Source: Spirochaetes bacterium GWE1_32_154
Lineage (GTDB): Bacteria > Spirochaetota > GWE2-31-10
Length of the DNA: 41,916 nucleotides
Assembly: GCA_001829315.1 (NCBI GenBank)
Contig: MIAY01000016.1
Location: 1 to 41,916 of the forward strand
Direction: 5' to 3'
Part shown: in pieces, positions 1 through 4,285 of the stretch
Numbering within the stretch: position 1 is the first letter of the stretch
Layout of the letters: each line of letters starts with the position of its first letter
Program-made: the position numbers and the translations under genes
Notes under the pieces: model-generated
The model's input: only the letters and a program-made list of their open reading frames with translations
Told to the model about the DNA's origin: nothing
Databases searched by the model: none

Positions 1-231
1 ATTGACGAAGAACCAATGATTGACGAAGAACCAATGATTGACGAAGAACCAATGATTGACGAAGAACCAATGATTGACGAAGAACCAATGATTGACGAAA
101 AACCAATGATTGACGAAGAACCAATGATTGACGAAAAACCAATGATTGACGAAGAACCAATGATTGACGAAGAACCAATGATTGACGAAGAACCAATGAT
201 TGACGAAGAACCAATGATTGACGAAGAACCA
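1..231 (+). repeat. In-frame 18-bp tandem repeat (MIDEEP units)
   Basis: Twelve full copies of an 18-bp unit beginning ATGATTGACGAAGAACCA run from 16 to 231, after a partial copy at 1-15. The only differences are GAA to AAA in units five (88-105) and seven (124-141), which change Glu to Lys. Synonymous positions are identical in all units, indicating recent expansion or homogenisation. The unit length keeps the frame, so copy number can change without breaking the gene. The window begins inside the array, so the total copy number is unknown. Confidence 0.97.
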
Positions 232-939
232 ATAAAATTTAATATAATTAATGAAAATAACGAACAACTATATATTTCAAATGATATAAATGATACTATT
301 GAAATAACATTACCGGAGATTATTGAAGATTATCAAAATCAACCTAATCTGGAAGATATAATTCAATCTCAAGAATTTAATATTATTGAACCAATAGACG
401 AACAAATTAATTTTTCAGCTGAAATATTTGAAAATATATCTCAAAATAATCAAGAAGAAAAAGAAGAGAATGAATCTGCGATCGAACAAAAATCTATAGA
501 AAATGCAGTTGACTTAAAAGAATTATTTGAAGAAAAATATCATCGAATACTATTTTATTTAAAAAGAACAATTTCATCAAACCCGAATATTACTCTCTCA
601 ATAATAAAAGTAAAAATTACTAATGGTGAACAATTAGAATTGGAACTACCAAACTTTAAAATTGATACATTTATTTCAGATGTTCAGTTTATTGTAATGA
701 ATATAGTCGGAACAGATGGACTGGTTAGTATGTTTAATGATTTTTCAATATATGCAATTTTACCTGAAGTCGACTCATCAAATAGTAAAGAAATTTTAAA
801 TAGAATTGTTGAAGAAATTGAAATTATGTTTAGTGAAATATTTGGTTCGTCGCAAATTGATTTTGAAAACAAAATAGTAAACTATCCGGATGACTCTGAT
901 AATTTTATTGAACTATTTTTTCTTGCTCAAAATGCATAA
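1..939 (+). CDS. MIDEEP-repeat acidic protein with GGDEF-like C-terminal domain (5' end outside window)
   Basis: The reading frame is open from base 1, so the first ATG at 16 is probably internal and the true start lies upstream. The visible N-terminus is a run of twelve hexapeptides MIDEEP (two as MIDEKP), preceded by a partial copy. Then comes an acidic, Asn/Glu-rich linker to about residue 165 (counted from the ATG at 16), and a folded region of about 140 residues. That region has alternating strands and helices that resemble a diguanylate-cyclase fold (LSIIKVKI, then FSIYAILPE followed by a long helix), but the GGDEF signature position reads FNDFS, so catalysis is unlikely. The stop codon directly abuts the start of the following Maf-like gene, which implies co-transcription and translational coupling. 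No specific function is recognised; the domain match is by eye only. Confidence 0.75.
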   Translation: MDEEPMIDEEPMIDEEPMIDEEPMIDEEPMIDEKPMIDEEPMIDEKPMIDEEPMIDEEPMIDEEPMIDEEPMIDEEPIKFNIINENNEQLYISNDINDTIEITLPEIIEDYQNQPNLEDIIQSQEFNIIEPIDEQINFSAEIFENISQNNQEEKEENESAIEQKSIENAVDLKELFEEKYHRILFYLKRTISSNPNITLSIIKVKITNGEQLELELPNFKIDTFISDVQFIVMNIVGTDGLVSMFNDFSIYAILPEVDSSNSKEILNRIVEEIEIMFSEIFGSSQIDFENKIVNYPDDSDNFIELFFLAQNA

Positions 940-2232
940 ATGTTAATAGAAAAAATTATTGGGAAAAAAGGTATAGAAACCTTTAAACTAGACAATAAAT
1001 TGCTCTATTCTTTTTATGATCCTTATAAAGAAGCCGAAAATTATTTATCGACTTTAACCTTAAATGAAACAGTAATAACATTTTGTGGTGCTGATTATAT
1101 CAATTCCTGTTTGGATAAAAATAAAATAGTAAAAAAGATATACTCATTTGAACCAATTTCATTTCCTAATCAAATTAAAAGTAATAAAATCGTTCGTTTT
1201 AAAACAATATTTGAATTATTGTCTATAGTAAAATTGGAAAAACTTAAATCAGAATTAACATGTATAGTCGTATGGATACCATTTATTGAAAGTAATCCTA
1301 ATAATTATATTCAATATTTGAATGATATTAAAAATGAACTAATTAAATCAACTTTATCAAATCTAAATATAATTTCTTTTTCTACTTTAGAAAAAAGAAA
1401 TATTAAACGAAATCTTTTTAAATTAAATAGTATAAAATACTTAAAAAATGAAATTATTACCAATCCACCTCCCGCATTAATTCTAAGTTCAGGAGGTTCT
1501 CTTCAATTAAATATTGAATTAATAAAAAAAATTCAATCTAAATGCATTACATTTGCATATAGCTCATCTCTTGATTATCTTTATTCAAAGAATATAATTC
1601 CAGATTACATAATAGCTGTTGATCCTGGATATGGAACATTCTATCATTTACAAAAATTCAAACAAATTAGTAAAATAATAACTACTTTATCAATTACTCC
1701 TTCTGTTATAAACCTGAAAAATTATGATTTTATTTTTTTTAATTATGGAAGCGAAATTGAAAATGAACTTTATAAAAAAACAAATATTATTAAATCTATT
1801 CCAGAAGGAAGTGTTGCTTTTAATCTATTAGATTTATTAAAGAAACTCAATTTCAATACTATATATTTATTTGGACAAGATTTTGCATTTTTTAATAATA
1901 AATCTCATATTGAAGGCGGAAATTTTGAAACAGAATTTCTTGCAAAAAATAATTATTTTAATTCATTTGAATCAAATATATTCAATCATGAATCTTCATC
2001 AATAAAAAATTTTATAACTGACAATCATATAAAGCTAAACAGTAATATTCCCATGTCTATTTATTACAATCATTTTCTTTCTAAATCGAAAGAATATCCA
2101 ATTAAATTAACAGGAAAAATATTTAATTCATATAATAATTCATTAGAATTTATTGGTGAACATATTTTTAAAAGTTTACATGCTATAAATAAAAATGATT
2201 TAATAATTAAAACTGGAATTTTAAACAGGTGA
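940..2232 (+). CDS. Motility-associated factor (Maf/DUF115) glycosyltransferase-like protein, divergent
   Basis: This 430-residue protein has the architecture of the Maf/DUF115 (6-hydroxymethylpterin diphosphokinase MptE-like) family, members of which modify flagellins in several bacteria. The core nucleotide-binding-like loop is SSGGSL at residues 183-188, where the family usually has GxGPSL. It is followed by an IIAVDPG segment near 224-230 and LFGQDFAF near 312. The ATG directly follows the stop of the upstream repeat protein with no gap. A second Maf-like gene starts 3 bp downstream. The substitutions in the loop make it more divergent than its neighbour. The family assignment is fairly secure; the sugar or acceptor is not visible. 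Confidence 0.8.
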   Translation: MLIEKIIGKKGIETFKLDNKLLYSFYDPYKEAENYLSTLTLNETVITFCGADYINSCLDKNKIVKKIYSFEPISFPNQIKSNKIVRFKTIFELLSIVKLEKLKSELTCIVVWIPFIESNPNNYIQYLNDIKNELIKSTLSNLNIISFSTLEKRNIKRNLFKLNSIKYLKNEIITNPPPALILSSGGSLQLNIELIKKIQSKCITFAYSSSLDYLYSKNIIPDYIIAVDPGYGTFYHLQKFKQISKIITTLSITPSVINLKNYDFIFFNYGSEIENELYKKTNIIKSIPEGSVAFNLLDLLKKLNFNTIYLFGQDFAFFNNKSHIEGGNFETEFLAKNNYFNSFESNIFNHESSSIKNFITDNHIKLNSNIPMSIYYNHFLSKSKEYPIKLTGKIFNSYNNSLEFIGEHIFKSLHAINKNDLIIKTGILNR

Positions 2233-2235
2233 CTT

Positions 2236-3711
2236 ATGAATAAAGAAAATCTAAAATACTTATCAAAAAGACTATTATCTTATTTGGAAAAAAGCTACAA
2301 ACCTTCATTTACAATACAGTGGTCAATTTCGAAAGACAATTGTATGATTCCAGAAATCAATGGTAGAAAATTACATTCAAAATACTATGCTTTAAAAGAA
2401 GCAAATAAATACATTCCATTAAATAATACTAGTCAAAAAATAGCCATTGGAATTGGATGCTTATACCATTTAATTAACTATTCCGCTGATTATAAAATTA
2501 TAGCTATTTCAGATGACCCAAATTTTACTTTACAATTATTAGAAAAAATAGATATTTCAAAGTATTTTAATCCAGATAATTTAATAATTTGTTTTTATGA
2601 TGAAATTGATTCTTATTTTGATTATATTAAATATAACTCAATAGAGCCAATTATTAATTATACAATATCCGAAATATTTCAAGAAAATACAAAAAGTATC
2701 TTAAATTATTTAAAAAATAATATTTCACCAAAATTACTAGAATACAATACTCAAAGAACTTTTGGGAAAAAATGGTTAACAAATTCGTTAAATAATTTGC
2801 GAGATATAAAAGAATATAGTTCATCACCGTTTATAGTAAATGGAAAAGCAATTTTAATTTGTGGAGCAGGTCCATCATTAGATGATAATTTACAAAAAAT
2901 AATTCAAAATAAAAAAGAACTATGCATTATCGCAAGTGACACTGCATTACCAATTTTATTATCACACAACATTCTCCCACAAGCTGTTTTTACAATGGAT
3001 GCCTCTCCCTATTCTCAGTATCATTATATGGAATATTTGAATAATATTAGGATATTTATAGATTATACTTCATCGATAAAAATAAATAAAAAAAACACTT
3101 CTTTGTTATTTTCAAACTTCCCCTTACTTAAGACATTACCAATTGACAAGTCTTTATTACCCTGTATTGACACAGGATTTGGTAATATAGGAAATACTAT
3201 AATATCTTTTTTTGAAAAGTATGCAAAAGATTTCCCAATTATTACAACCGGTATCGACTTTGGATTTAAAAATAAAAAAACATACTCTAAAAGTTCTTAT
3301 TTGGATATTTATAGAATTTCTAAAAATACTTATTTAAATTCAATAGAAAATATAGATTGTTTTTTAACATATAAGAATAGAATACTAAAAAAAATCAATG
3401 GTTGGGAAAACAACGTTTTGAATGAAACTTTTTCTAATAAAATGGATGCAAGTATTATTTCTTTATCAGACTCACCATTTGTACATTGTAATAAAATTAT
3501 TAATTTAAATGATTTTTTAAAAAAACAAAAAACAAAAGAAATTGAGATCAACTTTAATTATAAAGAACTTTATAAATTGGATATTAAAAATGAATTACTC
3601 AACATTCCTAATTCATCACTTTCTAAAAATTTATTAAGTTATAAATTATTTTCAAGAAAAAAAGATGTAATAAGTGAAATAAAGGGTAAGATAATAAGTA
3701 TTTTTAAATAA
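2236..3711 (+). CDS. Motility-associated factor (Maf/DUF115) glycosyltransferase-like protein
   Basis: This 491-residue protein is a clear member of the Maf/DUF115 family. The GAGPSLDDN loop lies at residues 210-218, SDTALPILL at about 234-242 and a FTMDAS strand-loop at about 252-257, followed by the central TGIDFGF segment. These are the family's conserved core. A Shine-Dalgarno AGGTG overlaps the end of the upstream gene, so the two Maf genes are probably coupled. In the family, such proteins transfer sialic/pseudaminic-like sugars to flagellin; that role here is an inference. The gene ends convergently against the small membrane-protein gene, overlapping its tail by 8 bp (3704-3711). Confidence 0.85.
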   Translation: MNKENLKYLSKRLLSYLEKSYKPSFTIQWSISKDNCMIPEINGRKLHSKYYALKEANKYIPLNNTSQKIAIGIGCLYHLINYSADYKIIAISDDPNFTLQLLEKIDISKYFNPDNLIICFYDEIDSYFDYIKYNSIEPIINYTISEIFQENTKSILNYLKNNISPKLLEYNTQRTFGKKWLTNSLNNLRDIKEYSSSPFIVNGKAILICGAGPSLDDNLQKIIQNKKELCIIASDTALPILLSHNILPQAVFTMDASPYSQYHYMEYLNNIRIFIDYTSSIKINKKNTSLLFSNFPLLKTLPIDKSLLPCIDTGFGNIGNTIISFFEKYAKDFPIITTGIDFGFKNKKTYSKSSYLDIYRISKNTYLNSIENIDCFLTYKNRILKKINGWENNVLNETFSNKMDASIISLSDSPFVHCNKIINLNDFLKKQKTKEIEINFNYKELYKLDIKNELLNIPNSSLSKNLLSYKLFSRKKDVISEIKGKIISIFK

Positions 3712-4285
3712 AAAAAATTGTTTTTAAATAAAAAATAATAAAAATAAATACCACACAAAAATTTAAAGTAAATATTTTATTTAATGTATTTTTGTCTAAA
3801 TGTAATAGTGTCATATCAATTTCATTAATATCATCTAGAATCTTTTGAAAATTATATATTAAATTTTTATCAATTGTTAAACTATGAAAAAAAGAAAAGA
3901 AAAGAAATAATGAATATGTAAGTTTTGATTTAAATTTTGATATAAAAACTAAAACTAAACTTCTAAAATCAAAAAAAATATTAGATGAAAACAAAAAAAG
4001 ATTTTGAATTGAAAAAGATCTTTTAATTGATAAAAATAAAGAATGTTCTGTAACTGAAAAATTAAATAATTGAAAAATTATTTTACCTTCACCAACAAAA
4101 ATATTTATCAAAAAAATAAATATTGATATAAATAATATATTTAAATATTTTATTTTACTTTTTTTAATTATAAAATAATAAAACGAAAACAAAAGAAAAA
4201 AAACAATTGAAAATTGAATTGAAAAAAAAGATAAAATTAAGGAAATAAAACTAGTAATTAATAATAATAAATAAATATAATTCAT
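3704..4285 (-). CDS. Small polytopic membrane protein, possibly EcfT/CbiQ-like
   Basis: The 193-residue product is dominated by Phe, Ile, Leu and Ser, with about five predicted membrane segments (near residues 3-40, 48-63, 88-103, 122-137 and 170-190). The stretch around residues 64-105 (VGEGKIIF, FSVTEHSLFLSIKRSF) resembles the central part of EcfT/CbiQ transporter subunits, where a turn is followed by a G-L-x-x-x-x-K/R-x helix. The usual C-terminal ATPase-contact motif is not evident. The gene lies 49 bp downstream of rplQ on the same strand, beyond a weak terminator, and has no good Shine-Dalgarno sequence. In other bacteria ecfA-ecfT often follow rplQ, which fits, but no ATPase gene is present. 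It is low-complexity, so a spurious frame cannot be excluded. Confidence 0.5.
   Translation of the reverse strand: MNYIYLLLLITSFISLILSFFSIQFSIVFFLLFSFYYFIIKKSKIKYLNILFISIFIFLINIFVGEGKIIFQLFNFSVTEHSLFLSIKRSFSIQNLFLFSSNIFFDFRSLVLVFISKFKSKLTYSLFLFFSFFHSLTIDKNLIYNFQKILDDINEIDMTLLHLDKNTLNKIFTLNFCVVFIFIIFYLKTIFFI

Follow-up and report, generated by a model that had tools for sequence, protein, structure and literature searches.

An in-frame acidic minisatellite within a putative adaptor gene of an acidic-protein and Maf-type glycosyltransferase operon in spirochaetes

The window, by which we mean the whole stretch of DNA that was analysed (41,916 nucleotides), corresponds to the entire contig C16 of the source genome G000 (Spirochaetes bacterium GWE1_32_154), read from base 1. 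Its strongest tandem array lies at its very start, within an open reading frame that is followed directly by two MptE-like (Maf-type) genes, as the initial annotation had proposed (Table 1). Tandem Repeats Finder assigned this array 98% matches and a score of 452, and 13 units encoding MIDEEP were read in frame with the open reading frame; thus the claim of at least twelve in-frame copies of 18 bp holds, as does the start of the array at position 1, whereas its end lies near position 233 rather than 231. The array had also been called perfect, and this is true of 10 of the 13 units, which are identical; however, units 6 and 8 carry a GAA to AAA change (E to K), and the thirteenth unit closes with ATA. 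Synonymous differences between units are absent, in agreement with the annotation, and the presence of an identical E-to-K change in units 6 and 8 is most simply explained by a single mutation that was then copied by unit duplication, so that both the identical units and the copied change support the proposed recent expansion. The G+C content is 39% in the unit (not 44%) and 21% in the stretch immediately after the array. Since the array is tandem, lies inside an open reading frame, has a period that is a multiple of three and is of high identity, it is an in-frame coding minisatellite of the VNTR type, and the suggestion that its length can change without a change of frame is supported.

Table 1. 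Features of the locus, on the window unless another contig is named
Feature	Position	Strand	Basis
Adaptor gene, 3' part ("MGLL protein")	1..939	+	ORF open at 5' end; halves match intact genes in G001, G005, G004
Minisatellite array (MIDEEP)n, period 18 bp, 12.9 copies	1..233	+	TRF; linker between GAF (contig C25) and GGDEF-fold domain
Acidic low-complexity linker, non-repetitive	234..498	+	Sequence
C-terminal GGDEF-fold domain, no GGDEF signature (SMFNDFSIY at hairpin)	499..936	+	Alignment A1, AlphaFold, Foldseek, hhalign
MptE-like / Maf-type glycosyltransferase gene 1	940..2232	+	PF01973 E 7e-26; FlagModPseD 7.5e-8, below cut-off
MptE-like / Maf-type glycosyltransferase gene 2	2236..3711	+	PF01973 E 1.6e-22
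Adaptor gene, 5' part	L004 (G000:C25):2-1180	minus	Matches intact genes in relatives

The background of repeats was measured in a 456-kb sample of the source genome, consisting largely of contig starts. Arrays of short period (9-60 bp) with a score of at least 80 were found only in the adaptor gene, in the gene just upstream of it and in one further place in this sample, and they are so few that chance is excluded as the origin of the array. Arrays of 48 bp that are rich in proline are present elsewhere in the source genome (L122 7429-7729). Taken alone, the MIDEEP repeat is of a common type and a modest finding.

The only other site at which the MIDEEP unit was found in the source genome is the end of contig C25 (positions 1-99, minus strand), where 5.5 perfect copies are present. 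As the array lies at the ends of both contigs, these data indicate that the assembly was broken at the repeat, as had been suspected. When read from C25 into C16, the parts follow one another as MGLLARSLKYRELF...GLLAKALAYRE, an ELENEI array, a folded domain, the MIDEEP array and the C-terminal domain, and the same order is found in single intact genes of three relatives (Table 1). The halves on C25 and C16 are therefore probably one gene joined through the array, reconstructed by comparison with relatives from the same order and referred to here as the adaptor gene. The first five units of the window are also perfect, so the two contig ends may overlap, in which case the true unit number would be at least 13; without an overlap, it would be at least 18. 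The ELENEI array, likewise of 18 bp, occupies L004 690-1021 on the minus strand and contains 117 N, and because this gap is off the repeat phase, its length is probably a scaffolding estimate. Contigs that end in the array on both sides, together with the 117-N gap in the second array, make the copy numbers unreliable, and they would also be expected if the array or its copy number had been created by the collapsing or chaining of repeats during assembly. However, the unique flanks of both contig ends give the expected domain order, and independent arrays are present in the same linkers of relatives, which makes an artefact of this kind extremely improbable. It should be noted that these genes can be split by an assembly break and are then easily mistaken for two fragments.

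From its N terminus to its C terminus, the adaptor consists of short GLLxKA motifs, an acidic linker that carries the ELENEI array, a GAF domain, the MIDEEP linker and a GGDEF-fold domain. The region between the two arrays was modelled by AlphaFold with a pLDDT of 92, and its best Foldseek matches were GAF domains (E 9e-8). Pfam did not detect this GAF domain in the adaptor of the source genome; it was detected in the orthologue L088, and both the Pfam GAF and GGDEF models match orthologues of the adaptor from the operon. The C-terminal domain was modelled with a pLDDT of 90, its top Foldseek matches were all GGDEF domains, and hhalign aligned it with a set of GGDEF sequences at E 8e-9. The catalytic signature GG(D/E)EF is absent from all seven rows of alignment A1, and for this reason the domain would not be classed as a diguanylate cyclase by sequence. 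The source genome's adaptor and acidic protein matched no Pfam or NCBIfam model above cut-off, nor did the counterparts of these two proteins match any in NCBIfam; when PDB sequences were searched with profiles A1 and A2 (hmmsearch), nothing meaningful emerged, and a comparison of folds was needed. Of the weak matches of profile A2 elsewhere in the phylum that were inspected, most were other GAF proteins; the exceptions, G020 and G029, brought the operon to light. A scan of genome contigs and the genome search gave an identical set of MAGs. The density of the GLLxKA motif is 3.3 per 1000 residues, versus 0.05 in other open reading frames, although the pattern was picked after the sequences had been seen. 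In the G171 orthologue (L104 5503-8316, minus strand), six GLLxRA copies fall within the first 171 residues, and the sequence of this protein suggests a multivalent short binding motif. The adaptor is only weakly similar in sequence to its Treponema counterpart, with an hhalign probability of 75% for the GAF domain and 43% for the C-terminal part, and its link to the short proteins of the Treponema type is based in part on gene order and on the motif at the N terminus.

The initial annotation had envisaged a surface or scaffold protein. Surface antigens commonly have acidic tandem repeats, and the repeat has a weak similarity to an IgA-binding repeat protein (NCBIfam, E 3e-4), a match that lies far below cut-off and was rejected as compositional. 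The idea that this is a surface or antigenic repeat protein is, however, largely contradicted by the GAF and GGDEF folds and by a hydropathy scan and the sequence start, in which neither a hydrophobic segment beyond the core strands of the domains nor a signal-like start was found. The lack of a hydrophobic segment makes a cytoplasmic location likely and a surface role not, and the adaptor is probably a non-surface protein; a surface antigen is thus very improbable, while the scaffold part of the proposal is plausible.

Upstream of the adaptor gene on C25 lies a gene for a very acidic protein of 724 residues with the conserved tail VLSYLDQLLDALPEEKIKEFA..., and this gene carries a 57-bp acidic array of its own (L004 2154-2304, minus strand). 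In the source genome, this protein had one weak, unrelated match in Pfam and no match to a known scaffold family. The operon is phylum-wide, and its order is the very acidic protein, the adaptor, and then one or two Maf-type (MptE-like) glycosyltransferases, and PF01973, the Maf / MptE-like domain, is above cut-off in both genes downstream of the adaptor. In 24 of the 26 loci sampled, a gene whose start is GLLxKA-like lies a short distance after the acidic gene on the same strand, and 19 of the 26 have a Maf-type gene nearby; acidic and adaptor genes with no adjacent Maf-type gene were found, for example, at L054, L091, L103, L104 and L018. A small membrane-protein-like gene with no Pfam match is located at 3704-4285 of the window, between rplQ and the Maf genes, and open reading frames are similarly placed in G001 and G005. 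The profile of the acidic-protein tail matched 269 of 393 spirochaete genomes (146/168 genera), and one operon locus lies in a Treponema genome of 1,139,633 bp. Searches of the open-access literature yielded no account of what the operon does. Altogether, the interest of the locus lies in a conserved spirochaete operon, with two proteins that have no Pfam or NCBIfam match above cut-off in the source genome and an acidic gene that occurs in most genera sampled, a Treponema genome among them.

Flagellin was found in 351 of the 393 genomes, and the acidic-protein tail was present in 266/351 flagellin-positive versus 3/42 flagellin-less genomes (Fisher p ~1e-18, a value inflated by relatedness). 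The association with flagella is confounded by phylogeny, because most of the listed flagellin-less genomes belong to one family; the flagellin-positive genomes without the tail are mostly from two families (36 and 24 genomes). The three genomes with the tail and no flagellin match, G237, G362 and G371, may have lost flagellin recently or be incompletely assembled. In the source genome, flagellin gave four matches and NeuB one, which is what Maf-dependent glycosylation would need. The gene set is common to most flagellated spirochaetes and appears undescribed, and a flagellar role can be tested directly, since flagellin-less genomes almost entirely lack the acidic gene.

Arrays in the two genes were compared in relatives, with one genome per species. 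The linkers of the adaptor gene contain other units: EQEPII (18 bp) in G006, also at a contig end, long acidic units of 93-207 bp in G003, and EIDN (12/24 bp) in G005. The acidic gene has arrays of its own, such as 8.4 copies of a 75-bp unit in G029. Arrays with a score of at least 80 were present in 13 of 53 acidic or adaptor genes, with the split gene counted once, versus 4 of 327 other open reading frames (Fisher p ~3e-9). Of these 13, the array in the L054 adaptor (period 492) reflects a duplicated domain and not an acidic linker. The acidic arrays in a given linker differ from one relative to another, which indicates that in-frame arrays arose repeatedly in these two genes; however, a repeat content above average is to be expected of acidic genes of low complexity, so the difference reveals a hotspot and not its cause. 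Purely neutral slippage would mean that the codons of acidic low-complexity stretches slip easily, that the linker is tolerant, and that repeat and length carry no functional meaning. It is consistent with the variation of units among relatives and with linkers that are without strong arrays in G004 and in the adaptor gene of G001, and these observations imply that neither a particular unit nor a particular length is needed. It is nevertheless an unlikely explanation, because the linkers never lose their acidity or the reading frame and arrays recur in just these two genes, which points at least to selection for linkers that are acidic and flexible. By analogy with arp and tp0470 of T. pallidum, the unit number could instead be selected to vary across cells or strains as a contingency-type device that tunes the activity of the Maf operon. 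The MIDEEP units are very homogeneous and in frame, the adaptor gene has two arrays, and another spirochaete is known to vary in repeat copy number (PMC9531955, PMC11318916); but units that are in frame cannot switch the gene off, and the adaptor is predicted to be cytoplasmic, making such a device quite improbable.

The array, the contig ends within it, the domains, the operon and the association with flagella were established by computation, and the reading that we favor, with moderate confidence, is that the array forms an acidic spacer, probably disordered, within the cytoplasmic adaptor encoded by an operon of acidic-protein and Maf genes, and that it grew by slippage or unequal exchange. 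The MIDEEP array would encode an acidic, probably disordered spacer between the GAF domain and the catalytically degenerate GGDEF-fold domain, and gain or loss of units through replication slippage or unequal exchange would change the length of the spacer in steps of six residues. Acidity and flexibility would be maintained while the sequence of the unit is free, which could account for each lineage having its own unit, and variation in unit number would for the most part be tolerated and would not act as a switch. In this reading, the protein itself would serve flagellin glycosylation as a scaffold or multivalent adaptor. In broader terms, we tentatively propose that an undescribed system of three or four genes in flagellated spirochaetes, composed of an acidic scaffold, a GAF/pseudo-GGDEF adaptor and Maf-type glycosyltransferases, might organise the glycosylation of flagellin before its periplasmic secretion, with acidic spacers that evolve via the repeated birth of in-frame minisatellites.

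With the flagellin glycosyltransferase loci of Maf (motility accessory factor), the locus shares two PF01973 genes, flagellins and a NeuB match; unlike the described Maf loci, it has acidic and GAF/GGDEF-fold partners with no Pfam or NCBIfam family above cut-off, for which no description was found. PopZ-type acidic scaffolds have a long acidic, probably disordered region and a short conserved C-terminus, and the upstream acidic protein is alike in layout; this is an analogy only, however, and the acidic protein has no Pfam match to that family and belongs to another phylum and another context. Degenerate GGDEF proteins, such as the GGDEF domain of FimX (PDB 3hva), share their fold with the adaptor, and the catalytic signature is absent in both, although the adaptor's domain is only about 9-18% identical to solved GGDEF domains. 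In T. pallidum, arp (tp0433) and tp0470 contain in-frame tandem repeats of variable unit number that encode charged residues (PMC9531955, PMC11318916). A SPOR domain at the C-terminus and a proposed role in the envelope distinguish ARP from the adaptor, which has GAF and GGDEF folds, no SPOR match in Pfam and no membrane segment, and which lies in a Maf operon. The adaptor does not belong to the same family as these proteins. Like the adaptor gene, arp and tp0470 are spirochaete genes with in-frame charged repeats, and the variation of their repeat number is the closest documented parallel.
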